NCBI GenBank assembly: GCA_013115135.1 | Contig: JABANP010000115.1 | Span: forward strand, 62,001-126,000 | Length of the DNA: 64,000 nucleotides | Direction of reading: 5' to 3' | Source of the DNA: Perkinsus olseni | Lineage: Eukaryota > Perkinsozoa > Perkinsida > Perkinsidae | Translations under genes and position numbers: made by a program | In this document: positions 12,561 through 61,853 of the stretch, piece by piece | How positions within the stretch are numbered: the stretch's first letter is position 1 | Layout of the letters: the number at the start of each line of letters is the position of its first letter | The notes under the pieces: generated by a model | What the model was told of the DNA's origin: nothing | What the model saw: the letters and a program-made list of their open reading frames with translations, nothing else | Databases searched by the model: none

Positions 12561-14085
12561 ATGTGCTCACCAGATTTGTCATCATCTAGCTCTTCATCAC
12601 TGGAACTCGTTTTCAGGGCAGCAGGAGCAGCGGACGATGGCCACAACGAGGTTCCATCGGTGGTTCCCGCCTCGCAGCAGCCTACCAGACCAGCGTTAGT
12701 TGCGGTACCTGATCACATCCGGAATGCCGGTAAAAGAATAAGATTTGACGAAGCAGTTATTGCGGAGCATGATCTGGAGAGGTACTATGGACTGCATTTT
12801 ACGAGTCTGCTGGGTATCTTCTGTCGAAAGCGGAGGAAAATATGTTGAATTTATTTGTAGTGATTGCGATCAGCTGCCTTACGAGAATTCGTTCCATTTT
12901 GCTGATATAACCACATCGAGGGATCGATCCGGGGACCTTTCGATTACTTCAGAGGCACTCGTATGACCATCGACGAGCCCGATACGCCCTTCGTTCGCAC
13001 GCCCTTGAGCAGCGGTGAGTCGAGCGAGGATTCTTCCTCCACGCATGGCGGCCGTGGTGCCCATATTCGGATGGGAGAAGTCTCAAGAGAAGCTCGCCTT
13101 CAGAACTTAGCCAACGTAATCACGGGGGGGTATAGAGAAGCGTAATCCCGCAATTTTCGCTCATTTTGTTTATTTTTTGCGTAGCGTGTGGAACGTGATG
13201 TTTCATCTTCCTTGGTTCTTCATTCCGGAGTGTTAAGATTTAGCGCTTAGCTTCATCGGCGTGTTGCGCTCATTTCCGTGACTGGTTTAACGCGCAGGGA
13301 AATCACGTGGCCGATGAAGACGAAGGTGATGCCGACGGGGGGGCTGCCAGTTTGAGGATAGACTTTTCGACGGCTACGGCTGATGAGGCGGAGGAATTGG
13401 AGAAAGCTCGGAAGGCTCGGGAGTTTCATGAGAAACGCAGACGGCATTATAACGAGATGCAGGTCATACGGGGGCCTCGCTTGATGGTGAATGAGCGGAG
13501 TGTCTAGTGATTTCCCATGAGAATTCGCTGAGGACCCCTCGGTGAGGGGGTTCACCATTGGCTCAGTATGGTCGACTGTAGCATCAAGATTCCGGAAAAA
13601 TTTGTCTAGCGGCGTGTGTGTGAACAGCTATTAGCTAGCAAACCAGAGGCATGTCGCGGGCGTTGCGCGGTTTTTATGCTTTTCTCCGAGAATTGTTGGT
13701 CATCGTATCGTCTCCATGGAATTCTGCGAGGAATTGATTCGCTTGACTTGGCGGCAGTAGTGTTAGCCTTTGAAGCTGCATTTTATATCGGTCACGGCCG
13801 TAATAGAGAAGACTACCCGCTTGTGGTGAATGGTTGTGCTGTTTCTGACCTACTTATCATAGCCCAGAACGCATCTTGCGAAAAAAGTATAATAATTTCA
13901 TGAAATTGTGGAGAAATTGTAGGGGCGCATTTTTTTCTTTTCCTGCTCTGCAGATGGTGCGCGCGTTGCGGGAGCAAGGGCGTTTGGAGGCCTCTGAAGA
14001 GGAGGACGATCAGACTGAGCCGTCCAATGGTGCTGGGAGGGATCAGACTATGGAGAACTGTCGGCATCTCGGCAATCCGTGTTGA
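12561..14085 (+). CDS. Protein phosphatase inhibitor-2 (IPP-2 / PPP1R2 family)
   Basis: Inhibitor-2 binds and regulates protein phosphatase 1. Exons: 12561-12781, 12953-13129, 13298-13486 and 13954-14085, giving a protein of about 205 residues, the usual size. Family marks are IRFDEAVIAEHDLERG, then IDEPDTPFVRTP (equivalent of the IDEPsTPy segment with the GSK3-type phosphothreonine), an acidic stretch, and the basic HYNEM segment (RRRHYNEMQVIR) that matches the KLHYNE PP1-docking helix. A poly-Ser start precedes the domain. The exon 2/3 junction is out of phase and sits at a run of seven G (13124-13130), which suggests a homopolymer length error. Intron 1 (12782-12952) carries a reverse-oriented tRNA B-box-like core. 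Regulation by phosphorylation at the conserved threonine is family knowledge. Confidence 0.85.
12782..12952 (-). repeat. Intron with reverse tRNA-like core in inhibitor-2 gene
   Basis: GGGATCGATCC at 12920-12930 reads GGATCGATCCC on the minus strand within GGTCCCCGGATCGATCCC, one base off the B-box consensus. It lies about 20 nt from the acceptor. Confidence 0.5.
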
Positions 14086-14089
14086 TTTG

Positions 14090-17000
14090 CGGTCGTGGTA
14101 TATGTAGTGATAGTTTCACTGTTATGGAACGATATTGTTGTTGCTCAGTAGAATCTGGGGAGAATTTCGTGGCGCGCGGTCGGGTGAAATATGCATGGCT
14201 TGCGAACTGGTTATGATTGGCTCTTTGTAGAGGTTCTCGACTGCTGTCGCATGCGGGGTGACTGGTCTGCGACATCGGGGTGCGACGATATTCTCGCGAG
14301 ATCGCGAATGAACTACGAATTCGTCCGAGGGAAATTCACTCGTAATTGAGATCATTCTGGTGAGCTTCGGAGCTTGTGGTCGCATGCCATGCGACGCATG
14401 GATCGGAGCTCGTCTGAGTTCGAACTGAATCGGTGACGCTGTCGAAGTGGCGTCCGAAGACTCGATTCTGAGCAGGCAAACATCCAAACAGTGTAGAGGG
14501 TTGGGTGCTGGAGGGCAGAGACTAGCTCCGCCTGGCGAGTGTGAATTTCTCGGTGGCCAATGCGTTCCTCATGTAACGGGTGGAACTCCAATTCAGTTGA
14601 GAGAGTGTTTTTCAGGTGTGTAATCCTTGCCATTGTCAGCTTCCTAAGTCTTTGCTATCTTCCCCTCGACATTGGAGTGGTGGCCCACGTCGGGCAGCTC
14701 GGCCGTAGGTGAGATGTCACCCTCGAAAATTCCTTCGTATGGATTTTCGTTGAATGGAGCATCTCAGAGCTCCTCAGTTGGTTATAGTAGCCTAGCAGTC
14801 ACTGGCAGCTGTTACCAAGGGGATTGCAGCGAGACACTTGATTCATGTATGAAAACCTCACCTTTCTGCCAGGTGAAGCGATCCGGTGGTGAGACCGGAG
14901 GTAGGGACTCCTCCCTACTAGGGAGATTTAAGAGGTCGCAGCAGTTTACTAACCATCATTCCCGTACCAGTGAGGAATTTCAGACGGTGCTCGTGGAAAT
15001 ACTAACAAAAACCATTTTCCACGCCTTGCAGTTGATAGGGCTGATCATGGGGATGCGCGTTCATCGAAGAAATTTCCCGACTCTTGTACTGCATCCGAGG
15101 GAGACAGAGTCATAGTGCCTTAGGCACGATCTTTACCAGTAGTAAATTACCACCAAAGGTCCGCGGAGGAGCTGGAGGCTCATGGCTGATACCTCTTAAG
15201 CGGCCCGACCGACCCACTGCATGGGTACCCCGGTCGGGCCCTATCTCGGAGTCTGGTGTTGAGACTGCTTAGCAGCGACCTCCGAGGTCTACTGACTTAG
15301 TAACTCACGCCCTGACGGGTCTTCAGCAATGCGCACAGGAGAAAGTCGAAGCCACATGGCTAGGTCAGGATATGTGATTGAGATCGGTACCGCTTCTTCG
15401 CGGAACATGCGAGAAGAGCAGGGTGGCTGAAAATTTGAAAATTTTCTTCTTTTTTTCCGAAATTTTCCGAAAATTTCGAAGTTTTTGCGGCTCCATTATT
15501 TCTTTCCAAATGTAAATCTCGCTCGCCCAATAATATGCGCCCCGTAACATTGGTGAGTAATTGCGATCTGCAGACAGGTTCAGCGATAGTAAGTGGTTCA
15601 TCCGGATAGCGCTGAACATATGCCGTATGTTCAGCATACCATGTCGAGCTTTCGGATGAGTGCCCAGTGGTAGGAACGCTGCCTTAGACCACTGTATGAT
15701 CGCGATCAATGTTACGTGAGAAACGGTGTCAGAGGTTGCCATGCCCAGCTTGCAGCTTCGTGCGAGGAACACCTAGCCGTTGTAACAACGGCGTTGTTGC
15801 TGCTACTCCTGCTGCGGGCAAGAGCTCCCCAACGCAAATCAATGGGAAGCTCATACCCGTCACGCGAGCGAGGCGCATTAGCTTTGCGGCGAAGCAATCT
15901 GAGGACTGGAATCAGGGATGGCCACCCAAGAGGAGAAAATGATCATCGACTCCCTGCTGTCCATGCTGAGAAGCTCTGTGCAGAGACGGTAGGGTTGGAC
16001 GATGAAATTTAATCTCTCCCTGCGCCTCCTATGGCACAGTACAGAGTCCGTACCGCTCCAGAGTATAATATACTCTATATAATATAGTCAGTATATACGG
16101 AATGTCAGATACGTCGTAGAATCGGGGGCCCTCGAAATTCAGTGACCGGATCTGGGTCCCTGACCCGGTCACCGAATTCCGATGGATGCACTTTGACACG
16201 GTATTACGGTTCTGAATGAAGCTGCTACGTTACTGTGTTGTTGTGAAGATGCTGCCGTGAAGGTCTTACCGAGCTATAGGTTATAACATTTAGCGCGCTG
16301 CGCTGGTAGTCCCGCGCCTTGCCCTGTGAACTTCACAGTGTGAAGTGCACAGAGTGCAGTCGAGTGACACTTTAGCTCAATTGCTCACATTATACTAATA
16401 TGAATAACCCGAATATGTTCAGTGAGCGCCCAACGCAACGCTGACGACGGAGTCTGGCGCGCAATAAAATTCTTGACCACCCTCAGTCAGCCTGGCGGTC
16501 CGCCGGAGGCGGACCTTGCGCAAAATTTTATTCTTTTCATTATTTTCCCATTTTTTCCTATTTTTTTCCTAATTTTCCACTATTTTTCTTTTACTCCTTC
16601 CGGAAATTTCTCGAAGGAAAGAGTCGATTTTCTATCTTTCCGTCAGCCACCCTGGAGAAGAGAGCTATGCTAATCCTCTTAGAGACGAGACTACGCACGG
16701 TGAGGCATTTCCTACTGCCTCCAGTACGACTCTTGACTCGAGATATAGAAACCGCCCGGACTGCCATATAGCGGGAATCGCAGAGCAACCAGTGTAATCC
16801 TCACCCAATACGAACAGTTCGGACTCCCTTTGAGTAACACTCCTCGGAACTTGTTGCCACCTCTCGAGGCGTGGTTCTGTGAGCTGTGGGTGATGGCTCC
16901 TCTCCCGGCCCCTTGTTTGCATGTACCACGTACACTGTATGAAATGTTCCACGAATGATGAAGATCGTTGAAGATCGATCCACGATGTTAACTATAGGGG

Positions 17001-17600: not shown

Positions 17601-17630
17601 TAATCCCTAAGCACGGTTTCCTCACAATCC

Positions 17631-18801: not shown

Positions 18802-21800
18802 ATGGATGAACTTCAGTCGAGTAGTTCTGTTTCACTGATGTCTGTGCCCAGTCATTTATATGCAGCCAGCAGTACTCCCGTGACGATGCCAAGCCGGCCG
18901 GCGCAGACCTCCTCGGGGACACCGACGCCTATGGATGTTAAAAGGATGGCGGAAGAGGTAAAAACTGGACGGAGGAGTTGTTCTTAACATATATAAATTG
19001 TGCTCAGAAAAGTCTGTAGGATTAGAGTTCTTGGGGCACGTGTAACATGAGGAGTGTCTAGTTTGACGAACTTGTCGAAGGAGGGCCCGAAGATTCATGC
19101 GCAGCTCCGAGCGACCACGAGAAAATTCACGAGAATTGAATTTATTCGCGATGCGGTAAGACTCGCAATGAAGAGTTTTGATGCCGAGTCTTTCCGCAGT
19201 CTCGATTCCAGAGCCGCTCGAGAATAGGGAGGGCGGTTGGTGACCAACCGTTGGTCAAAAATGCGACCAAAATGTGCCTAAAAATTTTATATTGTAATTA
19301 GAGCGGTAGATACCGTTTTATTTTACTGATCATCGGAGATCCATCGTGTTCAGAAACCTTCGAGGGACACTTTCATCACTGTTGGTCGCACTTTCTGACA
19401 CCTCTAGCTTCCTCAGGCGATGCTATCTTCCACCTCTCCTGAGCTGCGTCCTTCTAGAGATCCCTCCCTTGGTGAAGCGACAGACGGGAAACAAACATCC
19501 CTCGGTTTGTCGCTGTTCCGGAAGCAAGGGTAGGTTGGTACCATTCAATCTTAGGATTGCGTCGGTCTCATTGGCTTGTTTTCGCTGAATGCGTACATTA
19601 AGGGTGATGCTGGCGAGACCGCTTTCGGATAGCTAGTGGACCGTTGAATCTTGGATGGTTCTGAAATTATTGGTTGAGTTGTTAGATCGAACCGAAATGT
19701 CGGCTCTCGGGTTTGAACCGAAGCCGATTCAAGCGGTTCTGAGGTTCTCGGCGACGAGTCATGGTGCGTTAGGTATCTGCTGAAGCAAAGTAGTGCTTAC
19801 TTCACTCAGTGGTTGGAGAGGTAAGACTTCGCACCCGAGGAACGGTTTAACGCGCAGGGCTCCCAATAATGTAGGAAATTTTACGTGGAATAATTCTGAG
19901 TGTTGTGCGAAGTTGTGTGCGCTCGGTACATCTCGTGAGAACATTGGTCATGAGAGAGCGACAGTGATATTACTCATGCGGTATGCTGTCATACCTCATC
20001 ACCGTGGTACAAAAAATGAACAGAGCTGTGCTGAGACCGGCAATGAGGGGCATCTATGGGGCCCATAGTATGGGCCACAGACTGTGGCCATTGAGCTGTT
20101 AGTACCGACGTCTTACATATACTGTTCTACATATACTCATATACATGAACGTCGCACGGACGGATGCACTTCATAGTCGCCAGATAGTTGCTGCATCTAA
20201 GGTGCAGCTAAGGTGAAGAATGGATCATTCTTCCCATTCCCGATGCATTCTTCCCCATTGAAACAAGCCCCCCAAATTTTTTTTCGCGCGCATATCCACC
20301 CGTATTCCATGCTCCCTCAAGTCAAACCATTGGAATGAAGCACCCGAATACCCGGGAAGAATCTCAACCATTCTTCCAGGGAATATTGAGCATTCTTTCT
20401 TCCCGGGAATTTCCGGAATTCCCGGTAAGAAAGAATAGCATTCTTCCCCTCTGGGCCACCCTGAGCGCCAGCAAACGTTGGGTCGAGTTTCAACTGAGAG
20501 ATGGAAAGCAAATTCTCAGCATCAAGAGTCTCAAGTATTCAGGGAAGAAGTTGGTGATGGGGAAAGCGCGAGTAGAGAGCCAAGATGGGGTATGGCCTAT
20601 GTTGTTCAGTGTCTCGTATGCGCAGGCACAAGTTTAACTCAAGAAGCCGATACAGCTTATGGAAAAACCGCCCGAACTCGGTCTCATCGATGAGAGCTGC
20701 CAGGCTCGAGAGAGAGAAGTTGAAGCTGTACCTTGCTCAACCTCGACGTTCCACTAGTAAAAAGCAGTCATATCGAAGGGAGTCGTGGATCGGGGACCTC
20801 AGCCAGTTCATGCATAGTGCATCATGCACTCCAGTGGTCATTGGAGCGATCGCAGAGTTCTGCCTGCGCGAATGCTCCCTCTCAGTCTAGTCGAATTGCG
20901 AATCTGTCCTTATTGCGGAAAGCCGGAAACTCGTGGGAAGAACGACCATGTCTACACCACCCGAGCTTGGAAACATGGGGAGTTTCCGGAGGCGCCGAAG
21001 GATCGGAGCAACAGCGCTAGATCGGGAGCAGTGGCTGCAAAGCCTGGCACGAAAGACCGGAGAGAGCACGCGGCCGAGCGGCTCTGTTCTCTAGGCGACA
21101 CTACTGAAGGTGGTCACTTCGGAAGCAAATAGAGGTGCAGGGTATGTGGAATGGCGTAAAGTACTACTTTACTAGTACCTACTTTTAAAGTAGGAAAGAC
21201 GGAAACATTGGTCATAGCTTCACTGGGCGAGGCCAGACTTTCTGCCCTTTCGGAGATCCCGTCGAGGTTCTGTGTGGAGAATTTCGGTCGTCATCAGAAA
21301 AGTTGTGATGTCTGCCGTGTGCCAAGGGGCTGTCGCACCTCGAGCTGTCGAGCGGAGAGGTCTTTACCGAGGATTGAACGAGAATGGGCGGTCCTTGCTG
21401 CGGAAGTCGCATAATTTCTTCCTGAAAGTTGTATCAGCTGAGATATTGTCGACTCTCACAGGCCTCTCGGAGGCGCTTTCGTGGCTATGGAAGTGGGGAA
21501 GTGAAATTGACTGCTCAATATGCTGAACGGCCCTCTGAACTCTGAGAAGTCCCAAGTGATGCTGTTACAGCATTGCTGTATACACCCCTCTGGAAGAGGG
21601 GTCGTCTTCCAGCAAGATAACAGGGATCGAGAAGCGCGCGGAGTGGACAGCCATGTTCGTTCTGAACGATTTGAACGAATCGTCCAACAGTCCAGGGTAG
21701 AGCTTCAATACCAATTCATACTGTCGACATCATTATTGATAGCAAGCATTCGCTTTGGCAATGTCTGCTCAACGGGCGTCCACAGTTTCTCGCGTAGTTT

Positions 21801-22512: not shown

Positions 22513-25500
22513 GACGGCTATGGCGAAGTGTGGTCCTTCGTCATCCGATGGCCGCCACCAGTCCGAGGGCACTCTGATGATGGTGAGAGGGGTGGGGATC
22601 ATGGCAGCTCATTGGACTCGGTCCATTTCCCTTTTGTTTGGATTTTGGAAATATTGAGTTGATATTTCTCAAATAATTTGAGAAATATTAATTACTACTG
22701 TTGAGTCGAATCTATACTGAACTTTCGCCCGCGATATTGAAAACACAGGTGAAATCCGCATTTCAGATTTCAACATCGCGATTCTCGCGATTTTCACTTT
22801 TCTCAGTTTTCGTGAAACTCCATCGAATCAATAGTTTTGTAACTCTTTGATTAATTCGATTTTGAGTTTTCGATTTCCACTTCTTCTGCTCAGGCTTAGC
22901 ATCATCGGAGCCCATCTCGTGGCCAGCTCCGTCAGAGTAGGAGTTCCTGCACATTGGCAGCTATGATGAGCAGGAGTGCGAGGAGTGGTTCCGGGCAGTC
23001 AAGCAGGCGATCATTTCTGTAGACAGAACGTAGGCCCCTTCAACCATCACCGTCTTTGCGTATGTGGGTTAAACTAACGGTTAATTTTCCGAAACGTTAA
23101 CCGGGTTAATGGTACTACGCCGGTATTGGCTCTCACCGATGTGCGCAGTTTTTGTGAGGCTTTTTGAAGATATCGGTGGAGGGAAATTATTGGATGGTTT
23201 TATCAGGAGGCTTTCTTCGGAGTATTTGCTATTCATCTTACATTCTTAATTAGTAATAACTTTTTTTACATTTCTGCGAAAATGGGATACTTCAATATTG
23301 AAATGGTTTTTGAATGAGTTATACATTTTTACTTGTCGATCCTTGTTGACCCTTGTCTTTGTCAGATACCGTATTCAGTATCAGTACAGACAGCGGCGTC
23401 TGTCGTCGAGCGATGGACAGAGTTATGAGGCAACAGCGAACAGCGAGAGTCAGCTCGAAAAGGTATCTTTTTCGCATCCTGGGAGAATACGAAATAACTT
23501 GATATCCAGATTCGTAGCGTTTTTACCAGATCGACTGAAGAGCAAATATCCCGCTGCCCTGAAAGACGTTGAAAGGCTGGATGCGTCGGGAGCCAGTGTT
23601 TGCTGGTCACGGATGTCAGATCGCTGTAAGCTCTGTCGTCTTAAGGAGACTGTACCACACTTTCGTTTATTCACATAAAGTGATAGACGGACGCACAGAG
23701 TCTATCAATACGAGTTGCAATAGCATCAAGGAAATGTGAAAAAAATGTGGTAAATTTCGGGATTATTTTTATGTGAACTTTTTTCTTGGCCTGCGCTTTT
23801 TACTGCTCGGCGTTGGAAGCGTGTGCGGCATGTCTACTGTAGTTGTGTTATTGTCTACTTTGCCGTCAGGTGAATAAATCGTCACGCGCCACGAAATTCC
23901 GTCTGGTTCAACTGTTCGACGGTTTTGACAGCGATAGTGTTTGGCGAGAGATGAAGGAGGGTTCCTTCGGCAGTTGGCTGTCGAGGGTTGACGGATGCTG
24001 CTTTCAGCCCATCACGACGATTGCGACTGATGAAGGTGAGTTGGACGCCCGGTGTTGCTATTGAGCGATTTTACCTTTTTTCTATCAGAATTAGATTTGA
24101 TAGCGTACTTGAGCGTCTGTGGGAAATATCAATCACACTCGTAGTATATCCATACTATAAAAATACGTATCTAGGATCATCACGCCTTATTAATTTTGGG
24201 AGATTATGACAAACGAAAATGATAGCAAGAAATTTAGTATCAATAAAAATTTTTTTTTGGATTATCGTGGCAGTTGAAATAGTCATCGAGAATTGAGAAA
24301 ATTATGGTAAGACTGAATCGTTACCGACTTTTATCATCTGGCGCTGATAGATTGTTGGAAAAACGGTGTGAAAAGTTGTTTTTGAATTTTTATTTACTTC
24401 TTCTCCACAGGAAATTCTTCATCAGGATTTCATCCGCTGGTCGCTGTGTAAATTGTTGTCGGTTGAACCGACTTGGTCCTGGGAATCGAACCAGGGATCT
24501 CCGGGAGTAGATATTTCTGCAGATACGACAGTCACGACAGACTATGCTTGCTTGTTCGTCGAGGAGGAGCGCCTCTCTCGATTGAGAGTCCGTGCTGATC
24601 TGATTCGAGCGCTGATCGACAGTAAAAAGCAGATGGTGGCGACGACCTCAGGAGAATCTTTCGAGGGTTTGGGCAGACGAGTGAGTAGAGAAGGGAGGGA
24701 GAAAAATATCGCTAGGAAAAAGGAGGGAAAATTTTCCGTCAAATTTAAGTTTTTTTTGTTTCCTTCGAGACTGAGTGCAATCGCTTTGGCTTGCCGATTG
24801 AACCGACTCTTGATCTGCTTCGTCTGCATATATATACTGATGGTTTTAACGAAATATTTTCTGCGTCTTTTGAGAAAATTTTCCCGAAAACTCGGAAAAG
24901 TGTAGTCTGTGTGATGCGCGTAAAATTTGGACGAAAATTAGAACTTTCGTGCTGACTCTGTGTTAAGCTGTGTTAACTGTGAGGATTTTTTTCCGATATT
25001 TTTTCTTTTTTTGTGATCAGGTTGAAATGGATTATATCTTCTGGTCGGTCGAACCTCTGCCGAATGGACGCGGCAGCTCGGTGACTTGTGTCGTGAGCAT
25101 CGCTCCGCCTGAAAAACAGAAAGATATTTTGGTCCAGCGATTCATGAAATATCTTTCGCCGAATCTTCGCTATGCGCAGGGAGTCGTATCTAAGATATTT
25201 GGCGGTAAGAAGAGGTGCGGCAAATCGATCACGTGATCGATTTTGTCAGGGCGATATAATCGTTCGGGGAATCCTGTTCACGATCTGTGGTTTCGTCATA
25301 TTTGGAAACTCGAAGATTTCCTCAACAGCACCGTGAAGAAAGGCGATTTTGAGTCTGGCAGAAACGGTGAGCGAAAGTGTAAAATTTCCGGAAAAATTGG
25401 CATTTTTTTATCTTCTTGGGGAAATTTTATGGCGCAGCGAATGTTTTTTTGAGGGCGTGATGATTTTTAAGAGCACTTCAAGGATCGTCTCCTATGCGTT

Positions 25501-27311
25501 GAATTCATCGAACCCCTAATAATTCTTTATTTTTTTGTTATTTTCTTGAATATCTTGGGCGAGATATTTCTCTCGATCGACCAAAATTTGTAAACTTCGT
25601 GGTATCGAACTGATTTTCCCTCAAGTTTTTGGGCGATCAGATCCTCGCATTTTCGATTATGATTTGACCGGCGGCTGTCGTCGTGCCATCAAATCAGGTG
25701 GGAGGGGAGTATCTTAGGTTGAAGCTGGTCTGTGATGGAACATGGTCCTTGTTAGGCGATAAGATATCCGGAACAGATAAGGACGAGAGGGTGCACGAAA
25801 TGTATAATTTTCTCGGAAATTTTCCGGAAAAACTTCGGGATTTTTCCTCAGGCTCGCTCGCATTGAAAAAACGGCCGCTGAGACCGGCCAAGTTTGCCCG
25901 ACCGAGTCGGACTGCCGACGCTTCCTTACGGCATCGGAATGGCAGGTGGACGCGGCGTTTACGAAATTGCGAGGTAGAGCAAGATTGCAAGTTTTCGATC
26001 GCAAGGGGGGAAATGTTCGGATGGGGAATTTTAGTTGTTAATTCTATGAAAAGAAAAACGAAGGAATTTGTGGAAAAGCAGAGTTAACGGGAAAGTTTCT
26101 TTTTCCTTTCATTAACTTATCGATTAATCTGGGACGGATCGGACGCCTTGTTATTTAGTGATTATATCGTACCATTTCGGCTCGTCTACAATCGATCGCG
26201 TGATCGATTCATCTCCACAGATTCTCTAGCTTGGCGACTTACTACTTTCGGCATCGGCCACCCGCCTCGCGGAATTGATCCTGATTCAATTTCGGCGGAG
26301 CGACGCAAAGGCGCGATTTACCTCCGCGGGCGAGACAAATTGGGAAGGCCAATGTTGGTCTTCCGAGCGCGGTTGCATGAACCAAGACAAATCGATCAAC
26401 AAGAGTATGGGTTATGGTCATAATCGATCGTCAGGGCGCGCGCTTTTTGCATCAGGTTCGAAAGGTATCTAGTGTATTGTGTGGAAAGATGCGTATCGAA
26501 AGTTGTTGATGATGGTTCGAAGGAGGAAACGCAGCAGCTGATTGTTCTGGCGAACATGTCTGGGTGCGGATACAATAATTTCGATGTAAGGCGATTTTCG
26601 ACGGAATTTTACGATTCGGAAATTTCTGTGAAGGATCGTCTGTAAAGACGTTCACGAGGCTGATCTCAGCAGGGAATTCATTATGGGAAGGCAGTATCTT
26701 TATAATGGAGTTTCGCCCGTGATACGTCAAAGGCCGTTTTCGCTTAGCGGAAATCGCGATCGGAGATGAGGCCAAATCACTTGGCGCAGCACACATACGT
26801 GAATTTACGATGTTTTTTCATATTGCGGGTGGCAGTTTTCCCACCCGAATTTGACAGTGGAAAAAATCGCATTTTTGAGGGGCTCGAGTGTGTGATTATT
26901 CTATGAGTTCTTCGATTTCAGGTACCCTCGACAAGATCGGTTGTGAGGTTGTTGGCCGATCGTTATCCTGAACGTATTGGGTCGATCTTGGTTACCAACT
27001 TGAACTGGGCTGGAAAGCAGTTTTGGAATATTGTAATGAAATCGATCACGTGATCGATATTATCGGCCTTGTCAGATTCGATCGTCTTTGTCTGAGCAAA
27101 CAATTTCGAAGATTCATTTGGTCCCTCGAGAAGACCCGGTGGAGTATCTTAGCCGGTTCATCGACCCTCGCAATGTACCTGCATTTTGTGGTGGTATCGA
27201 CACTTATGTGTAGGATGCCGGGATCGAACCTGTGCGGGTTTGATGTCTTCGTTTAGGTACAGTATCGAAAATGATGACCTATTTTCTGATGACGAAGAGG
27301 GCATCGAATAA
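22513..27311 (+). CDS. PH plus CRAL-TRIO (SEC14-type) lipid-binding protein
   Basis: The 3' half is a clear CRAL-TRIO domain that binds and transfers lipids such as phosphatidylinositol. Exons: about 25852-25975 (DCRRFLTASEWQVDAAFTKL, the CRAL-TRIO N-helix), 26221-26404 (GRDKLGRPMLVFRARL), 26456-26585 (VLANMSGCGYNNFD), 26922-27032 (LLADRYPERIGSILVTNL), 27076-27209 (YLSRFIDPRNVPAFCGG) and 27257-27311 (acidic tail, stop). The 5' exons 22513-22582 and 22941-23029 (YDEQECEEWFRAVKQAI) match the end of a PH domain. Between them, exons near 23387-23630, 23870-24038, 24520-24672, 25021-25204, 25250-25366 and 25641-25697 encode a middle region with FWSVEPLPNGRGSS and FMKYLSPNLRYAQ, which might be a START-like domain (weak). 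Some junction phases fail, and a TAG at 22938-22940 lies in frame unless it is an acceptor. The true start is not found. Introns are 43-52 nt near the 3' end. Confidence 0.75.
24448..24515 (-). repeat. Reverse-oriented tRNA-like sequence in a probable intron
   Basis: On the minus strand it contains GGTTCGATTCC (24482-24492 on plus as GGAATCGAACC) inside CCCTGGTTCGATTCCCAGG, with flanking sequence that could be an acceptor stem remnant. Intron borders here are not certain. Confidence 0.6.
25205..25249. repeat. 45-nt intron carrying ATCGATCACGTGATCGAT
   Basis: A perfect 20-bp palindrome (25223-25242) sits just before TTGTCAG. The same palindrome occurs in the intron at 27033-27075, also followed by TTGTCAG, and close variants lie at 26190-26209 and 27386-27403. 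Confidence 0.8.
27210..27256 (-). repeat. Reverse-oriented tRNA-like introner in the SEC14-type gene
   Basis: A 47-nt intron with GGGATCGAACC at 27220-27230, which on the minus strand reads CAGGTTCGATCCCGGCATCC, a convincing T-arm/acceptor-like string. Exons join in frame (phase 2) across it. Confidence 0.75.
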
Positions 27312-27869: not shown

Positions 27870-30800
27870 ATGGATCTAACAGCTCGTACAGAACACCTCT
27901 TGACGAGAGTGCTCAGGGTCACGCTGGACCCTAAGGCGGCGGCCACACATAAGGATCTCGACTTGGTTACGGTGGAGGGAACGGCCGGGCCTATCAGGGT
28001 CGATATCGTAATGCTTTGGAAGAGGGATCGGAGGGGAAATCGATCGGTTGTTTTTTTGCGGGAAAATGCAGTACTTTGATTCGTAATTTTGCAGAAAATT
28101 CGCCCTCTGTATTCCCGGCAATTCTTTCACTAATAATTTTGCTCCTGGTTTTCTACGAGTTCACATTAGAAACTATCTGTCATGATTTGATGCACAGGCT
28201 GGGGCTCCCCACCTTGGGGGCGCGCTGGTTCCTGGTAATTTCTGAATTTTGTCTTTTCTCTGGGAGTCGGGTATGCGGGAAAATTTTCCAGCTTTTCCTG
28301 GTATGACCCGATATTGGCATGGATCAATAAACCGAATATTGGTTCGACTAAAACGAGCAAATTTGACTGAAATACCCAAAATTATCGAAAAGTTTGCTCA
28401 GCGTTTCCCGCTTTTTTCCGAGACTTTCCGGGCAAGCCCTGGTCAGAGCGGCGATAGTCTGTTATCAGTGGTCATCAGAGTTCGCTTCTATGGAGGCGAC
28501 GGAAGCATCGATTAAGAAAAATGCAAGGAGGGTTTTCGTCGGAGAACGGTGTTCAAAATGGGAAGAGATGCATCTTATGCGCGCGTCATGGCCGGATACT
28601 CTGTGATCTCATTTTTCGTTTCAGCTCGACGAAGTTTTCGTGGCTCGATTGAGCCAGCTGAACACCCTTGGAGCCCAGCTGTCGTACATGGTGGAAGTTT
28701 ATAACAGGATCGAAGACGAGGCTAACCGATCTTATCGCGGGGATTTACAGGATAAAATACACGAGGCGGTGGTAATGAGGGATTGTGGTGGAATCTTGCA
28801 ACCTTGCAATTCCTCAACGTATATATGTGGGATGGAATGGAAAGATTTCTAATGAAAATGTAGTAAATATCTGCACCTAAGTTTTAGCAGATATTTTGCT
28901 CGAGGGCCACGGAATTCATCGCATGTTGAATCCTTTTCGGTGTTCTTGTTGATATCCTACAGGTCCCCGGTTCGATTCCTGGTGACTGTATTTTATCCTC
29001 AGATCAAACCTCTGCGGGAGTGCCATATAAGATACCTGTCGATGGTGTTGCAATGTCCGGAGCTTTTCGGAAGGCCGTCGGCGGAGCTCTATGCTAGCGG
29101 AGCGGAGCTTGCTGAATTTGTAATAGCTGGGCTTCATGGATTCAGGCCGGAGGGCTCGCTCACCACTCATCGCGGAAAGGTGTTCAATCGTTGAATTTCG
29201 CGATGTTTCCGAAAGGAGTGGTATGGTAACACAACGGTTTAATACTGCTTCTTTCACTATGAAATCGATCTCCGATACTATTCGGTACATCTCCCTGAGA
29301 TTCTCCGCATAACAACCTCTGTAGAGAGTATCCCATAGCAGCAGCCTAGGAGTTAGCCAACATGTTGTGGGGGTTGTTCTTACTCGTCCCGGGTCGCTTC
29401 TTTGAAGTGATGATAGAGCTCGACGAACTTTTTCCCGCGTTTTTCCGGACCCCTCATTTCGATCACGTACGGCGACTTCGCGTAGAGTAACGCCGATGAG
29501 TTGTGAATGTACGGAAAAAATGGGTTTGGAATGTTCGTGAAAATGTGGCGTATCTTAGGTTAACTTCGGCCACATGCCGATGCCACTGTTGGTGAAGTTA
29601 GTGACTGAGATCAACGATAGTGGCGGATCTGAGGTGATATTGGGAGGTGGGGGAACTGTGGGAAGTCGGACGAACTCGATGTCGGTGTTGGAATTTTCGA
29701 TTACGGATTGGTATGCAGACATTTTTTTGCTAACAAAAATTTTAGAATTATTCAAAAATACTGTGAACCATCTATCCAGAAACCAGCGTACGAGCCATCC
29801 TCCAGAGGATGAATTATACACTGGATAATGGATGGTTTTTCTTTCGTACTAGACAACGCCGCGACAGCACCATCACTGGTGCTGATGCGTTTTCTCGCAC
29901 CGGTGACTGGGGCAGACGCTGGAGGAAAGCTCGTCGGGTTGGAGCGGATAATTTTATATTGCCGGTTTGATAAAAGTTTGGTGGCCTTTTTCCGAAATCA
30001 CACTGATGCTTTGTTGGTTTTTTTGTGAGGGACTGGCGGCCGTGTTGCTTCCTCGCGGTGACTCCGGGTCTCGCCCGGAAGATTCGTTCTGGGATCTTGA
30101 CGGGGAAAGATCAGAACTTGTCAGGTTCTATCGCCATTAATTTTGCCAGTAATAGGGAGCTGGACAAATAAAATCATCCAGGATCGCGGCCATGGATTGC
30201 ACCAGTGTGGAGCGGTAGGTGAGGGTGCACGGGGAAAATCATGAGAGAGTTGTGTTAGGGGCCTGAGGCAGCTAAGCTGGCTATGCTGATGAAGCAGCAG
30301 AAGGTTATTGCAGAGTTAGTTGTAAGTTGAGCTATTTTGTATCTTGCGTGGGTGACCTGAAGATACTTTCAGACATCGTTGCCTGTTTGGTACACGGAGC
30401 CCCCGCCAGCGCCGAGGATGCCGAATGATCGGAGGCCTCCGCAGAATAAAAATGCGTGAGTCGGAGCTGAGGAGTCGAATCCTCTTTTGCGTATACTTGT
30501 ACGTCAGGTTTCATCTACAGACTACTACTATTCTAGGGAAGATGCTCTCGCCAAGCGCGATTGACCACAACTTGCTCGATCCTCAGGAGGTAGTTAATGC
30601 TGTGATTCGGGGGAAATGTGGTATCGTGAAGTGCGAGCATGCGTGGAGATGTATGGTCTTTTTAGTTACCCAAGTCGGTGAAGAGGCAGAATTTTAATAT
30701 CTCGCGAATGTCCCTTGCCGGCCTGGGACAAATGATCAACACGGTAAGCTATTCCAGAGGTGGAGGCTTTCGGCAAAATGGTAAAGCAGAAAATTTCGAA

Positions 30801-33800: not shown

Positions 33801-36730
33801 GACTCTCCGAGGTAAGCGGGTGATCTTGCACCCTTGCTAGATCTTGCATTTCCTCAAATGTTTATGCTAGGTTCGTGGATTCCCTGGCTCACTGCATCAA
33901 CCTTATGATGTCGCTGTTCCTGGTGAAGGTCATCCCGGATGATACACCGGACAAAACGAAGCCGGCTGCGAGTGAGCGACTTCGGTGGCTTCGGACGATT
34001 CTCGACGTATCTTTGTTCAAGCGTGCTTGGGACAGAAATGGCTAGTTCGTGCTGAACTAACAGCTTGAGCTGTGACCATTTTTGTGATTGTGGCTTATTC
34101 TGGTTTGTTAAAACCACTGCGTTCGGTGATGTTTTTTCATTCGTTTTTTGGTGTCTCAATCGTGTATCACAATCGAGACCTCAATCGATCTCAATCGATG
34201 CGAGACCTTATCGTCGATCAGTGCTGCCAAACGCGAGCGCTCTTCGATGCTCGGTGACGTACTCACGGTGACGTAACGTCACTGACGTTGGAGCAATACG
34301 CACACTCGCGAAGACCGGGGTGGATCTGAGGTTCAGCGTAGCCGTCGGGTCTCGATCCATCAAGTGCGGCCTGCATTGGCATATCTGTAGATGAGAAATT
34401 TCGAACTGAACATGATACGTGGAAACGTGAGGTCGAAGCCTCGGGAGATTCAAGATGAAACTTTGTCACTTGACTCGCGCGATCGAGCCGCAATGCTGAG
34501 AGACACACTATTGATGGCAGTTGTAGTTTCGAGCGTTACAGGCGAGCTAGATAACAGATGCGCTTGACGGAGTGAAGTGAGTTGCCAAAACCGAGTCGGC
34601 AGAACCGACCACATGCGCGCGCGAAGCGCGCCCCCAAGAATATTTTCAAATTTCTCAGTATTTTTTATTTCATTCGACTCCATTCTTTTATGATATGCGG
34701 TATGAGGCCCCAGGCCGCGAAATTTCAATCTTCAGCCCCCGAAAACGAAGAAAACATCAGAAACGCAACATCAGCCACGATGCTTCAAACCCAAACTTGC
34801 GAGCTTCGCTCAATGAAGCTCGCAGAGAATGGCATCACTCCTATACGTAACGCTTCCAACCACTAGATTAGTGGCTGACGAGCGGTAATTATGATTCAAA
34901 ATTCATAATTTATGAATCAAAATTTATGATCAGCGATGATCATAGGCTTCTCGAGAAGTATCGAGGATGCTTCTAATTACTACACGTTTAGCTCCGCCGA
35001 GTTTCGACTGAGGATACCAAAGGCCCATTGCAAGCAGTATATGAGTATGGGCCATCAGACCATCAGCACTCCGCATGCCATGTGCAAAGAAGCCGCTAAC
35101 GTCATCTTGTAAGATCGGGTGAGATGATCCACTGTGGGTATTTATATTGATATTATAGTTTATACCCCATGTTAACTATAACCTTACAGACACATATATA
35201 TAGGTTTCTACACAATATTACCTAGAATATTTCTAAGAAATGCTTTCTCATAAGAAATGCATTGCATCTTCACCAGTACTGCGTGTATTGCCGTTTTTTG
35301 CGCAGGGGAAACGGTGAAAATCGAGATGTGAAACGCGAAATGTGTTTTTTCACAAGTGCTTTAAATTCCATTAACATGTTAGATCAATTTATTTATTAAT
35401 TTTGAGTATGATACCATGATAAACGTTTGATAATTTTTTCTGACACCTCTAGTTCTTCAGGTGGTGCTGGAGCAGATGCTCACATCATGCCTTGACCCAT
35501 GCATCGATCGTCTGGTCGGTCCCAAGTGTCTCGAGCTAAAGGGGAAGAGCTATGACTTCAACGAGTAGGTTGCAGTCGCTCTGGTAGCATAAATATTTAA
35601 CAATAATCAGGTACAATTTCGACCCGAAGGATTTGCTTAGAAAGCTGGCTGAAATGTAGGTCCCGGGTTCGATCCCTTGCAGGTGTATTTCATTTTGTAT
35701 CAGGTACGTCTACTTGGCGCGCGGCGGAGGAACAGAGAAGATCAGTCGTATTGTCGCTGATGACCAGCAACGCAACGCAACGCCTATTACCGGGGCATTA
35801 CACGCCTATTGGCGTATCGCCCCTACCACGACCAATGCACTCACGGGCAGTAACCAGTGGCAGCATCATGATGATGCCATCATCCCTCAACCCCAAAAAT
35901 ATGCAGTACGCACAGTGAAACATGATCGAAACGCTAAAGCAAAAGTGGCGAGGGGAACGAGGGAATACAGCTACTAGTCCACAACTACAGTGTAATCGAC
36001 TATGAGTATCAGGCAATATAGTCGGGCAGCAATGTAGCCAATACACAACCCGGACAGTACCACAGTCATGGTAGTAATCGTAGCGGCAAATCGACGGCGT
36101 AGAGACGAGAAGGGGGCATAGATAGATGGAAAGTGGGGAGGAGGGAATTTTTACCGCCACTCAGTCACCACCCGTTGGGTGATCGTCGAGTTCGGTATAG
36201 TCGGTCTAGCTTCGCATACTCCGAATGAGTATCACCCCCACGCCACGTTGAGGCGCTAGACCATATGGGAGTGATGACCAGCGATACTACAGTCCACAGA
36301 CTTTCAACAAGGTGGCGCAAAATCTTGCGCACCTTGGTCAATCTTGCATTTTCTCAGGCCGTTACCATACTGAGGCGGGAACGGTTGCTAGTTGGCGATG
36401 AGTTCAATGAGTTCGAAGCGTTCGTGAAGCACCTGAACGACACTGCGTCCAAACGTGAGGAGGCGATGGACAACGTTGAGGTACTCAGCCGACAACAATC
36501 TGCTTCGCTCCGCCTATCGTAACTAGATACCCGATAACTATCTCGACCCGATCATGGCTGAGGTGATGATCGATCCGGTGAGGCTGCCGGGCTCCGGTCA
36601 GATCATGGACAGGAAGCATACTTGGGTGTTTCAAACACCCAAGTATAAAACAGCTTGGTATCAGGCGTTGTTAACTCTCCGCGAGAATTCTGTCTTCAGT
36701 AATAATGCTAGTGAGGCCCACTTCAACTGA
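27870..36730 (+). CDS. Ubiquitin conjugation factor E4 (UBE4/UFD2), apparently disrupted
   Basis: E4 enzymes extend ubiquitin chains with a UFD2 core and a C-terminal U-box. Exon 27870-27998 (LLTRVLRVTLDP) matches the N-terminal start. Further exons are near 28625-28770, 29003-29184, 31618-31704, 32093-32219 (VLLWLASALTN), 32906-32964, 33015-33143 (LNTAWVIFELCLPIK), 33295-33414 (RATKFVSQ), 33588-33699 (IFWEAVQALHIFVCPAL), 33754-33811 and 33871-34046. After a gap come 35461-35564 (DRLVGPKCLELKGKSYDF), 35611-35655 (FDPKDLLRKLAEM), 35704 to about 35770, 36358-36480 and 36527-36730. The last exon begins a U-box (NYLDPIMAEVMIDPVRLPGS) but leaves the family after 'IMDRK' at a palindrome. Core segments expected between 34046 and 35461 are not found, so the copy is probably broken or rearranged. 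Joined exons from 31618 to 34046 keep phase well. Confidence 0.8.
28961..29002 (+). repeat. tRNA-like introner tail in UBE4
   Basis: The 3' part of an intron: GGTTCGATTCC at 28969-28979, then TGGTGACTGTATTTTATCCT and CAG. This is an exact B-box consensus with the same tail as the two introns above. Confidence 0.8.
34050..35460. other. Repeat-filled gap inside the UBE4 locus
   Basis: About 1.4 kb where the second half of the UFD2 core should be encoded. Instead there are palindromes (GTCTCAATCGTGTATCACAA and its partner near 34150-34175, AT-rich dyads near 34890-34945) and no ORF resembling the family. Confidence 0.5.
35656..35703 (+). repeat. tRNA-like introner in UBE4
   Basis: A 48-nt intron that is little more than GTAGGTCCC, GGTTCGATCCC (35666-35676), TTGCAGGTGTATTTCATTTT and GTATCAG. 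Splicing it joins the FDPKDLLRKLAEM and YVYLARGG codons in frame (phase 2). Confidence 0.85.
36618..36646. repeat. Perfect palindrome at the U-box truncation point
   Basis: CTTGGGTGTTT and AAACACCCAAG flank a single C. It begins directly after the codons for the conserved U-box 'IMDRK', where homology to the family stops. Confidence 0.85.
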
Positions 36731-51448: not shown

Positions 51449-52176
51449 CTCAATGAGGTTGGCAATGAGCGAAACGCACGAGGCCAGCCGGCTTCAGTGC
51501 CAGAGAGATGCTTAAAACATGTGGTTCTGGGTCTCGAACCACGAAGTTCCACCGCGTTGTATTGGGCCTACATTTTTGCGGCGAGGCTTCTAGACATTTT
51601 GCTGAGCTAGCGAAGTCACGGAAGCTACGCGCTCGAGAATGAAATTTTGCCCAGCATTGGAACGTCCTGGGCATGCTATCCATGCTTGGACTGCTCTGCG
51701 CTTCGCGCTATCGCAAAACGCGAAGCATATTCCGGGGAGGGCCCTTCCCATTCGATCCTCGCCTCGCGTACACTGATAGTGACCCTCCCTGTTCAACTCA
51801 TGCGTTGGGAACGCGCCATGAGTGGGTAGGTACCTCCGCCACTAGAGCAACCAGTGGCTGTTCGTGGTTGTCGTGCGCTGCGTATACAGTCTCATTACCC
51901 AGCCGTAGTGCCTTGCACGAACTCACAGTTCCGCAGCGGAACTTCCGCTGACTTGCAACCTTGATTATCTTTCGAGCGCGCCGCGGTCCGCACGACGTTA
52001 CCGTTTCCTGTCGTCGTGCTTCCGACATAGGTCATGGGCAGTTACAACTGTTAAGCGAGCAACCTTGCTTTCGGAAATTGCGTACAATATTGGGAAGCGG
52101 GCTGAACACGGAATGCCGTACCAGGGCGATGATCGATGAGATGCCAGCCCGAGCTTCCAAAGCGGCCTACCTGTTC

Positions 52177-54270: not shown

Positions 54271-54271
54271 T

Positions 54272-56197: not shown

Positions 56198-56766
56198 CTG
56201 ATAAAAGTACGTACACCGCTGAGCACCACTATGTGTATGAAGGGAAAGAAGCGATCGATTACCTTAAAAGAGGTCTCAGTTTAACGCATGTAAGATGGAA
56301 TGACCACGAATAACGAAGTCCTCATCAAAAATTGAGAATAAAAATCATGCAGCACCGAGAGCGTAGAGAAGTGAACTCTAGGAGACTACCACTCACACTG
56401 GGAACAACGGGAAACACGAACGAATGTAGGCACTGAACTGATATTGCGGTAACACACGATGGAATTCGGTGAGGGGGAAGCTCACGCCGTGGCAAGAATG
56501 CATGTCCCGATGACGTTTTATAGAAAACGCGTCGATCATCTGGGCGCGCGCTTTTCGCGTGGATCTCGCACCGAGCACGGTTGTATTGACCTTCAAAACC
56601 CAGAGCTAGAGTACACTTATCCTGATGATTATAAGCGCCCCCAGGATTGAACTTGTTGTGCGAAAGCCAATTTTGGAAACCGTACTTGAAGCTGAGGAGT
56701 TGCAGCAGTCTATTGAACTCCGGGAGAGTATTTTAAATTCAGCTTTGGTTCTTAAAGTCGCCGGAG

Positions 56767-58598: not shown

Positions 58599-59077
58599 AG
58601 GCAGTGATTGACGGATGAGGGAGCATTGGTACCAGCAAAACCGTTTCAAGTATGTTTCGAAGTTGTGGAGCTAGTAGGAGTTGTTCCAGTGGTTGGCATC
58701 GCTCGGGGGGAGGTTAGCTTGATGAAAGCGGCGAAATGGAGTTTGTGGTGCGATCTCCTACTGTGACTGAAGCTTTAACTGCATCAGCGGTCATGCAAAA
58801 GCCCTTCGGCGACCAGTGCGCGACCTAGTATCAGTTTGCAGGCTGGGGCGATCGACTGAGATGGGGATACTCTGTTTTCGGACCTCCATACCGGTGTCGC
58901 TCCTATCAGTGGCGGTTGTTGCTGCTGGTGGATCAAGCTATAGCGCTTGGCCTTCGCAGCGAGTCTTTAGAGCTGCGCTCCGAGGTCTTTTCACGTTGGC
59001 GCGTTTGGTGCTGAGCGTTGGACGATCGTGCAATATCTCATTCTCATCAACAGTCTCCGTAGGGTTGCTTTCGCAGC

Positions 59078-61853
59078 ATGTCTAACATCTACGTAGCGGA
59101 GCCTCCCACCAAAGGCAAGGTGGTACTGCACACCACCCATGGGCCGATATCGATAGCGTTGTGGTCCAAGGGAGTGCCCGAAGACTACCAGGAACTTTGT
59201 CCAGCTGGTAAGACGTCTTGGGAATTTCGCTTTCACTGTTGTACTTTCTTTATGATCGGCTGCTACAGGGGAAGGGGTTGGTGGCGGCCAGTGGCTGCGA
59301 TGACTTGCCCTTGGTATGTAGAAGAGGTAGAACGTAGTTGAAGCGAAAATGAGAAACAACGCAACGCGTCCGGCCAGTTAGCTTCTCTGAACACTTATCC
59401 TGGAACGTCCCCGAACAGTAGTGACGACTCGGGTTACCCGAGATCAGTTGATCAGGCGGGATGGGGCGAGCGGGTTGATGGGGCGAGCTGATCAGTTTTT
59501 CCGGGATAAGGGCGACCGTCGATACTTAACTTCGTAATAGACTTCTGACGGCTAGGATGGAGTACCGCCTACAGGCTTCTCCCTGTCTCAACTTATAGGG
59601 CTTGTTATAGAGTCGGTCTGTTCTCTGATGTCGATCGGTTGCATATCCGGCCGACTCGCCGTAAATTGGAAGAGTTTTCACTTCTGCTGGTCCTTCCGGT
59701 CGTTGGGCACGCGGCTGCGACGGGGTCTTCCGGTCAAGCGCTAGGCGGAGCGAAGCTCTTCTTTGCAGGCTCTGGAGGACTACTACAACGGCACGGTCTT
59801 CCACCGCATCATCAAGGACTTCCTCATACAAGGCGGAGATCGGACCAACACCGGTTTGGGCTGCGATTCCATCTATGGCGAGCCTTATCCGAACGAATTC
59901 CATTCACGTTTAAAGTAGCATATTTCGACCGGCGGATGGGTCGTATCTTTCCGTATCCTGACAGGTTTCGATATCGTGGTTTGGTGGGCGTCGCGAGCGC
60001 TGGAGTCGCTGAGAAGGGCGGGGCGTCGACGAACGGCTCGCAGTTCTTCATAACAATGGGAAGAGATGATAGCTTTAATAATAAGTAGGTATCTTAGGTG
60101 GAAGCTGGGCGTTGACGGAATCCCTGGTGGTAGGTATACGTTGTTTGGCAAGGTTGTTGATGATACGGTATATAATCTGGATAGGATATCGCAGGCGAAT
60201 GTCGATACGAACGACTTCCCGACTGACGACCCGCCGCCCCACATCATCCGAGCTGAAGTCGTAGTACTGGGAATCTTCCGGAATGTATCGAACTCGGATC
60301 GACCTCGGGTTCTCCCGGCGGCGATGGGAGTCCGGGCCCGATCACGTACACGATTGAACCGCTGCGTTGCAATATCTCATTATAGAGGATGTAGTAGTAG
60401 AACTTAGGTGAATCGGCCTTTTAGTGAGTGCATACGGCCGGCATGGCTAGGCCAGTCGGTCGTTTTCGTGGCTTCGTTTCGACAGGGTAAAACAAACTCG
60501 TAGGTTTCGTCGATTATTATTAAGTGAGCGATAAGCAGCGCATGTTGGTCCCTTCAATACCACACCATTCGCACTTCCTGGCGAGTTGTCCAACGCTCGA
60601 ACCGTGGGTGGAAGATAGGCGAAATCTCTCCGAGGGAGATACGAAAGTTAGCGAGAATAATTATCTAGCGACTAGTGAGCGTCTGTGATGTTATGTCGAT
60701 TTCGCATGGGGAAATCTGTGGTTGCCCGCCTTCGACCTGGGATACGCAACTGGGATTTACCTTGGTGGTCGGTTAGGTTGAGAATCCCTTCACGGATATC
60801 ATTCCGAGGGACATCTATCGGCAAGTGGTCGACCATGCTGAAGAGGAGAGGGACAATAGGAGAAAGGAGAAGATAGAAGTGTCCAATAAGAAGGGACTGC
60901 TGAGCTTCGAGGATGAAGAGAGTAGTAGTAGCGAAAGCGAAGACGACGAGGAGTGGTAAGCGGAAGGTTGTGGGTTCAATTCCTGGGTGCGGTATTTTTA
61001 CTCTTATCCTCCTGCAGGAAACGAGAAACGCATAGCTGTTAAAGTGAAGAGTGCTCACGATGGTGGAGATGCCTCGCTGTTGGCCGAAACAGCTAAGTCG
61101 GGGGATGCGGCCGACGCGGTCCAGAAGGAAGTTCTTCGAAGGCGGCAGCAAAGGCGAGCTAAGATGCTTCAGAAGGTGGTGAGGATGTCCTTGGCGTGGG
61201 GGGCTCGGTACTCCGAGGACAGCGAATTTCGATCTCGTTCACAGATCTTCTTTGAGCTGTTTTTGCAATTTTGGGATTGGCTGATGTGCAAGGAATTTTT
61301 TGTAGCGGGGGTTGAGCGAAATTATCGGCGCGAAGATTCTCGGAGAGATTCAGTGGAAGTTGTTCGCTGTCCGCTCAGTCCCGAGGCGTCCAAGATCTTG
61401 ATGATAGCGGTGAGGAGTCGGAAGGCTCCGAGTATGGCGATCGGGAACGAGCTGAGAAACTTGGTAATAGGCGGAAGGGAGGTATTTTTTCGGATGGGTA
61501 TCTTAGGTATTCTTCCGAGTGAGGCTAAGGCTATGCGGGAGAGTGAGCTTGAACGGCAACGGCAGATCGAAAAGATGCGCCAAAAGATTCGGGTAGGGGC
61601 TCCACGACTTTATTTATACCCTATCGAAGTCTCAACTCCAAAACCGTGTTGGGCGATGAGGATCGAAAATTATTCGGATTTTTTTGATAAAAATGCACGC
61701 TCCTTATGCAGCCTTGTGAAGTGCTCGTCATTGAAAGCGGGTTCGGGTTTTTGGTTCAAGTGTTTTGCTTTTCAGCAAGTTAACCGAGTTGAGGATACGT
61801 CTAAGAAGGAGACGAAGGGGCCGATGGGGATAGCTGATCGAGCGAATAAGTAA
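59078..61853 (+). CDS. Spliceosome-associated cyclophilin CWC27
   Basis: CWC27 is a cyclophilin-type peptidyl-prolyl isomerase of the activated spliceosome. Exons: 59078-59207, 59769-59914, 59965-60085, 60135-60260, 60783-60955, 61018 to about 61178, 61379-61463, 61507-61592 and 61776-61853. It starts [20 protein letters not shown], the family's typical opening. The catalytic fold shows [18 protein letters not shown] and [11 protein letters not shown]. The tail has [37 protein letters not shown] and a coiled [13 protein letters not shown], all in family order. One extra base after CCC near 59180 shifts the frame, and the 60955/61018 junction is one base out of phase. Introns are short (49, 50, 62 and 43 nt); that at 60956-61017 is tRNA-like. 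Confidence 0.9.
60956..61017 (+). repeat. tRNA-like introner in CWC27
   Basis: A 62-nt intron bounded by GTAAG and CAG. It contains GGTTCAATTCC at 60973-60983, a Pol III B-box-like core, followed by TGGGTGCGGTATTTTTACTC and a TATCC...CAG end. It shares this layout with the introns ending at 29002 and 35703. Confidence 0.8.

Follow-up and report, generated by a model that had tools for sequence, protein, structure and literature searches.

The genome of the shellfish parasite Perkinsus olseni probably harbours an introner-like family of tRNA-3'-end origin, which would have spread through the genome and often have arrived as new short introns. Its unit is an element of about 33 nt corresponding to tRNA positions 44-73, that is the variable loop, the T arm, the 7-nt acceptor strand and A73, followed by a T-run. 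In searches covering the assembly (61.5 Mb, 968 contigs), AGGTCCCNGGTTCRANTCC exhibits 2504 copies with at most two mismatches versus 18 for the reversed sequence. A genome-wide excess of the T-arm motif noted in a previous sequence-only reading was likewise found (944 + 891 exact copies versus 73 + 82 reversed). Another copy-number comparison in this analysis gave 207 versus 0.

The tRNA-like origin proposed in that reading is borne out by the aligned copies, which follow the tRNA numbering from 44 to 73 with exactly seven acceptor bases, A73 and the T-run. This register is observed in 82 copies and also in 62 copies not chosen on AGGTCCC, on which the analysis was redone because the loci L067-L086 had been chosen on this motif as well. 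The conserved stretch begins near position 44 and runs through position 73 and the TTT; on either side of it the copies are near random. CCA follows the element in none of the 62 copies. The shared tail described earlier (GTG, GTATTT, CAG) is present, and corresponds to tRNA positions 72-73 plus the T-run. The majority sequence of the copies gives a perfect 5-bp T stem. No covariation of the T-stem pairs was found among the copies; the stem is not maintained, and selection on its structure was rejected. Conservation along the element is uneven, with positions 51 and 66-67 near random and positions 44-50 conserved at 61-69%; that of the T-loop core is not measurable, since the copy sets were chosen on it. 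A single source whose copies merely decayed would not give this unevenness. The nearest-neighbour similarity of the copies is barely above that of column shuffles (23.6 versus 22.9 of 30). The possibility of many further copies in advanced decay was rejected, as the profile matches in C1 exceed those in Markov shuffles by a steady 13-14 or so throughout scores 8-14.

The window (the whole 64-kb stretch of DNA analysed) was scanned with a held-out profile of 34 columns, built from 70 training copies, none of which came from the window or from C1:1-200000. The six T-arm sites previously claimed all score at least 14, and none of the controls does. At this threshold the window exhibits seven matches, versus 0 in the reversed sequence and 0 in 20 Markov shuffles. 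Exact GGTTCGANTCC occurs twice (24482 on the minus strand, 28969 on the plus strand) with a shuffle mean of 0.15, and none of 100 shuffles reaches two. When up to two mismatches are allowed, the window exhibits no enrichment of the bare 11-mer (53 versus 61.9 expected), so that the claim depends on the longer element. The sites and their introns are:

60964-60997, plus strand: T-arm element, sense, in the CWC27 (cyclophilin) gene; held-out score 31.8.
60925-61017, plus strand: CWC27 intron (93 nt) with this element, as given by the gene finder.
35656-35703, plus strand: intron (48 nt) of a UBE4/Ufd2-type gene, with a sense element at 35657-35690; held-out score 34.4.
28772-29002, plus strand: intron (231 nt) of the UBE4 gene, as given by the gene finder, with a sense element at its 3' end (28960-28993); score 37.3.
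27210-27256, plus strand: intron (47 nt) of a SEC14/CRAL-TRIO gene, with an antisense element at 27206-27239 (minus strand).
24468-24501, minus strand: element in antisense to its gene, in an intron of uncertain limits; held-out score 24.0.
12906-12939, minus strand: element with one change within the T loop (GGATCGATCCC), antisense in the intron 12782-12952 (171 nt); score 21.3.
19695-19728, minus strand: seventh element-like site, absent from the earlier list and labelled exon by the gene finder; score 21.0.
51516-51549, minus strand: weaker match, with a held-out score of only 10.8.

The gene models are from our own gene finder, which in effect considers GT donors only. Its rows agree with the earlier observation that the element occurs in both orientations, and three of the proposed introns (35656-35703, 27210-27256 and 12782-12952) are reproduced exactly, the last as a gene-model prediction. 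The junction of the intron 35656-35703 lies at residue 61, within an Ufd2P_core match (15-83, E-value = 1.7e-18). In the SEC14/CRAL-TRIO gene the CRAL_TRIO match (E-value = 6.3e-35) stops about 4 residues ahead of the 27210-27256 junction; the element there has the lowest held-out score of the seven (14.9), and the profile match reaches 4 nt past the intron boundary. The limits first given for the CWC27 intron (60956-61017) had to be abandoned, as they break the reading frame in a hand translation. In the gene model the cyclophilin domain lies upstream of the intron 60925-61017, and the scanned peptide excluded that intron. The UBE4 intron ending at 29002 runs from 28772 and measures 231 nt, so that the element is not most of it; a Pfam scan of the peptide spliced across it gave no match. 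Of the putative intron 24448-24515, the element stands but the end does not (AG at 24522, CAG); in the gene model it is part of a longer intron, 24119-24522, and the limits are unsure.

After removal of tRNA genes, the predicted introns (103 kb) contain 10 core matches and the exons (137 kb) contain 2 (p = 0.006). A first profile, trained in part on copies from C1 and the window, gave 15 intron versus 3 exon matches (p = 0.0006), and the scan redone with held-out training gave 15 versus 2. Rows removed ahead of the counts were five ARAGORN tRNA genes, three loci read by eye as tRNA genes (L096, L097, L106) and the segmental duplicates L099 and L104. Two tRNA loci, L016 and L018, remain in the lists of 23 sense and 15 antisense rows, and C1:134502 appears in both lists. 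For L067-L106 the gene finder was given just 171 nt, so that the 16-19 of 35 "inter" labels carry little weight. Element introns recur at many positions across unrelated genes, and a phosphatase gene (L007) and a TPP-enzyme gene (L025) contain three each.

That these segments are real introns is supported by domain continuity and by annotated proteins (P0001, P0122 and P0123). Ten of the 19 tested element introns, once spliced out, fall inside Pfam domains; one of the ten, in a kinase, adjoins a long insert. The kinesin of the assembly is identical to the P. olseni kinesin (100% over 147 aa), and the annotated kinesins of P. olseni and P. marinus are continuous through the P-loop across the element-intron site. 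For eIF4E, both annotated P. olseni records join the exons exactly; the limits of the first eIF4E intron are unsure, P0122 being upstream of the junction in a different frame from the gene model. The annotated records, those of P. marinus and the second P. olseni record included, show the splice at the protein level only. The ten domain-internal introns have a median length of 51 nt (range 47-68 nt), of which the element makes up 27-33 nt; the other sequence amounts to 15-23 nt in nine of them and 35 nt in one. In L006, 27 of the 33 nt of the element are within the intron, which ends in the acceptor strand, so that the remaining bases would belong to the exon. The idea that the element entered together with its splice sites is supported in part: these lie near the element ends, but outside the conserved block.

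SINEs derived from tRNAs are characterized by an A box and a B box, a conserved body, a 3' tail and Pol III transcription. The Perkinsus element shares with them the B box and a T-run of Pol III type, but it is only about 33 nt long and lacks a clear A box, body or TSD. Its earlier description as a SINE remnant is not supported by these comparisons. No clear A box was found upstream of the element (6.22 versus 6.11, sd 0.08, in shuffles, and 5.95 downstream), and the search for a body or 3' tail revealed no conservation past about +26. Without a clear A box or column conservation, a full tRNA or SINE parent upstream was rejected. Direct repeats at the element ends exhibit no excess (4.92 versus 4.88 in mismatched ends, a test blind to TSDs below about 6 nt); those of at least 7 nt occur in 4 of 62 copies versus 5.4%. 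TSD-based transposition was rejected accordingly. Inverted repeats at the ends are not in excess either (4.80 versus 4.94). No tRNA-gene cloverleaf was found either: the window contains 0 tRNA genes and 0 Rfam gathering matches, and at E-value ≤ 5 seven loci gave no tRNA-family match, only three T-arm matches to the tmRNA model.

Paralogs were compared at four element-intron sites, the counts resting on the best candidates scored. Among the matches listed, the kinesin site is uninterrupted in 11 of 11 other loci, the eIF4E site in 4 of 4 paralogs, and the two phosphatase sites in 3 of 4 and 6 of 7, the latter count including the near-identical loci pair C135/C255. That nearly all listed paralogs are intronless at the four sites points to intron gain. 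The paralogs being old, the comparison indicates gain or repeated loss and gives no date. Locus tags of two series, FOZ60 and FOZ62, suggest that P. olseni has been assembled more than once, so that intron presence/absence should be testable at once.

There is some chance, clearly smaller than for gain, that tRNA-derived fragments entered existing introns and that selection for introns of about 50 nt trimmed the remainder. The tandem paralogs L020 and L022, which have a common intron position with different contents, would fit an older intron that was either invaded or replaced. Under a flat length prior, 18 of the 38 element introns predicted are longer than 80 nt when tRNA genes are left aside (21 of 41 when they are counted), as one would expect if elements had simply inserted into introns. 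Such an origin accords poorly with the small amount of other sequence in nine of the ten domain-internal introns, and with the paralogs that lack the intron.

It is rather improbable that the motif is held in place by function, either as a TFIIIC/B-box-like site in the DNA or as a signal for splicing, instead of being a spread element. The uneven conservation without clear subfamilies would suit this, as would other short repeated cores that are also intronic in both orientations, one of them frequent in predicted exons as well (14 of 32). However, a splicing signal is not expected to act in both orientations, a B-box site has no need of the acceptor length, A73 and T-run, and there is no covariation in the T stem. 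That the matches are due to chance or to ordinary tRNA genes is very unlikely. ARAGORN identifies 5 of 52 sites as tRNA genes, three more were recognized by eye among 40 loci, the window has no excess of the bare 11-mer with up to two mismatches, and 74 of 85 matches are one multicopy tRNA-like array sequence of AGGTCCC type, fitting the two-mismatch pattern behind the count of 2504. Against this stand the 19-mer excess itself and the window free of tRNA genes and Rfam gathering matches; the motif counts and the held-out profile scans refute this explanation.

According to the favoured reading, gain of new introns, a tRNA or tRNA-like gene would have supplied, with its 3' third, an element of about 33 nt that was dispersed to several thousand places in both orientations. 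In a good part of the cases its arrival in a coding sequence would have created a very short GT-AG intron. The element, which has a T-run, may be transcribed by Pol III. The copies may derive from Pol III or tRNA-gene RNA or DNA, possibly brought in by a host reverse transcriptase; the assembly exhibits 150 scored RVT_1 matches. In sense copies the T-run would become the pyrimidine tract before AG, with a nearby GT as donor, whereas in antisense copies chance GT and AG beside the element ends would be used. More tentatively, these introns may begin as exonic copies of tRNA-transcript 3' ends, which would comprise T arm, acceptor strand and U-run trailer but no CCA, the tRNA terminator being reused as polypyrimidine tract, possibly as one case of a wider building of introns from many small cores.

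Introners described by Gozashti et al. (2022, PMC9860276) resemble this family as many similar short introns in unrelated genes of an aquatic protist. That study favours DNA transposition with TSD/TIR, and its main text makes no mention of tRNA, SINE or Perkinsus. Its all-against-all BLAST (E-value 1e-5) would probably miss a degenerate 33-nt core. The introner elements of Amoebophrya (PMC7789003) are likewise repeated introns of a parasitic alveolate, with inverted repeats, direct repeats of 3-5 nt and mostly non-canonical splice sites; in contrast, the Perkinsus element exhibits GT-AG models, no inverted-repeat excess and a tRNA-like core. The introners of Micromonas and the introner-like elements of fungi (PMC3443670) are also introns multiplied by copying. 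They are described as co-linear with transcription, unlike the Perkinsus element with its two orientations, the fungal ones are thought to move as RNA, and the words "tRNA" and "SINE" are absent from the main text.

The source of new introns is an old open question, and most of the introners known so far are attributed to DNA transposons (PMC9860276). A family with its core in tRNA numbering as far as the discriminator base would connect the gain of introns with tRNA genes or pieces of them, and suggests tRNA 3'-end fragments as an unexpected raw material for new introns.

The sequence-only reading had pointed to T-arm / B-box sequence in short introns of four genes. In the window the exact 11-mer of the T-loop core is in excess (2 matches vs 0.15 expected), while with up to two mismatches no excess is seen; within the window, the bare 11-mer is weak evidence for the family. 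Across the assembly (61,483,535 bases in 968 contigs, with the window at C19:62001-126000), the 11-mer is in clear excess: 944 + 891 exact matches against 73 + 82 for the reversed pattern, which is strong evidence. The 19-mer AGGTCCCNGGTTCRANTCC exhibits 119 + 88 exact matches genome-wide (0 reversed) and 1328 + 1176 with up to two mismatches (10 + 8 reversed). Since, by our comparison, a single multicopy tRNA-like array sequence, accounting for 74 of the 85 AGGTCCC-type matches, also fits the 2-mismatch pattern, about 2400 matches are left. The copy number is estimated as about 6000 by a crude per-site model, and about 4000 by extrapolation from 18 sites in 264 kb matching the first profile, which was trained on copies including those of contig C1 and the window.

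We aligned 82 copies anchored on the core (positions 52-62 in tRNA numbering, the selection criterion), and repeated the alignment with 62 copies not chosen by AGGTCCC. In the latter, A44 G45 G46 T47 C48 C49 C50 are conserved at 61-69%. In both alignments position 51 is mixed, positions 66-67 are near random and 68-71 weak. On the 3' side of the core, C63, R64 and S65 (60 of 62 copies) are conserved, as are C72 and A73, followed by T at about 60% at each of three positions. Conservation fades 5' of position 42-44 and beyond +26. The majority sequence folds into a T arm whose 5-bp stem is fully paired; no covariation was detected among the stem pairs of the 62 copies (p = 0.89, 0.28, 0.44). A boxes are not clearly enriched 5' of the element (6.22 vs 6.11 shuffled, sd 0.08; 5.95 downstream). 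None of the 62 copies has CCA after position 73, which suggests a gene or an unprocessed 3' end as the source, and not a mature tRNA. Sixteen tRNA genes of the Arg-TCT, Ile-TAT and Thr-TGT types lack AGGTCCC; the multicopy array sequence GCGAGAGGTCCCGAGTTCAATTCTCGG contains it and, judged by consensus, may resemble tRNA-Pro. Tandem arrays of tRNA-like genes lie on contigs C818, C853, C601, C412 and C778, in parts regularly spaced by about 155-190 nt.

A self-trained gene finder was applied to C1:1-200000, the window and 25 loci of 3 kb; its predicted intron lengths peak at 45-55 nt. Across the unbiased 264 kb, predicted introns of every length class hold core matches (7 in short, 1 in medium and 4 in long ones); exons hold 2, and the labelled intergenic territory, which is small (24 kb), holds none. 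Without two tRNA genes, introns hold 10 matches vs 2 in exons (p = 0.006). The corresponding counts are 15 vs 3 (p = 0.0006) for the first profile, and 15 vs 2 for a profile trained outside the window and C1:1-200000 (score ≥14, tRNA genes removed). Both orientations, as claimed from the sequence, occur among element introns of 45-68 nt.

Real introns carry this dispersed core, which resembles a tRNA 3' end. In 10 of 19 element introns tested against Pfam, the junction lies inside a domain match above the domain's cut-off:

kinesin, one intron
Ufd2P_core, one intron
IF4E, one intron
Metallophos, two introns
TPP_enzyme_C, two introns
Cation_efflux, one intron
Response_reg, one intron (31.0 bits vs cut-off 30.2)
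Pkinase, one intron, beside a long insert

The HATPase match is under the cut-off; the SEC14 intron and the first eIF4E and phosphatase introns lie outside the domain match. No Pfam match was obtained for five (UBE4 N-terminal part, the ankyrin-like locus L080, L025:2560, C1:71833 and L019). The C1 kinesin is 100% identical to a P. olseni record over 147 aa, and the P-loop is uninterrupted in proteins P0001 (P. olseni) and P0002 (P. marinus). Two P. olseni records matching the eIF4E peptide, P0122 and P0123, both join the exons exactly. The single record obtained for SEC14 covers 45% of the query and does not extend to the junction. By the gene-finder models, the phosphatase gene at L007 and the TPP-enzyme gene at L025 have three T-arm introns each.

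Exon depletion alone cannot tell intron creation from ordinary insertion. Among the matches listed, all 11 other kinesin loci align across the P-loop site with no room for an intron, as do all 4 other eIF4E loci; 3 of 4 and 6 of 7 loci lack the intron at the two phosphatase sites, one locus on C87 being ambiguous. Beyond the 33-nt element, the ten domain-internal introns contain only 15-23 nt (nine) or 35 nt (one), and in three of them 1-6 nt of the element extend past the intron end. This paralog absence and scarcity of extra sequence favour gain of the intron together with the element. Against it count the long element introns (18 of 38 exceed 80 nt under a flat length prior) and the tandem paralogs L020 and L022, separated by about 8.5 kb on C4, which share an intron at the same codon with different core families, a T arm in one and TTCGCTCCGC in the other. 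Among the matches listed, searches for further L020/L022 paralogs and for cation-efflux paralogs returned the L022 locus itself and the own locus only, respectively.

Other cores recur in introns. A second core, TGCTTCGCTCCGCC, occurs in both orientations, also at C1 and the fetched loci; its sites in the window are:

36481-36526
25081-25179
59699-59768

It is found in 16 introns of ≤160 nt vs 0.7 expected in the analysed sequence, and 14 of its 32 sites are labelled exon. Genome-wide, GCTTCGCTCCGCC has 2636 matches with up to one mismatch vs 94 reversed. In C1, the window and the fetched loci, predicted introns hold 15 of 17 sites of the short repeated core GATACCACTC and 16 of 20 of CGCGCGCCACGAAATT. 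A GAGTATCTTAGGTTGAAGC-like core, in some cases followed by AAGATAC (hairpin-like), is mostly in predicted introns, and a GCGCCACGAAATT core lies within a local tandem repeat of about 36 nt at L026 877-976.

Among the open-access titles and abstract starts listed for introners since 2021, introners with tRNA, SINE, Perkinsus or transposable elements, tRNA-derived or retroposon intron gain, Perkinsus introns or short interspersed elements, and dinoflagellate SINEs, none described introners derived from tRNA. The element may be copied via RNA or DNA, possibly by a host reverse transcriptase, and its T-run would act as the pyrimidine tract of the intron. The RVT_1 reverse transcriptase gave 150 scored matches. 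In a nearest-copy comparison the copies hardly form subfamilies. Few subfamilies, with random positions 51 and 66-67 vs conserved 44-50, would fit an origin from numerous sources, or from long-lived ones held only at promoter-like positions.
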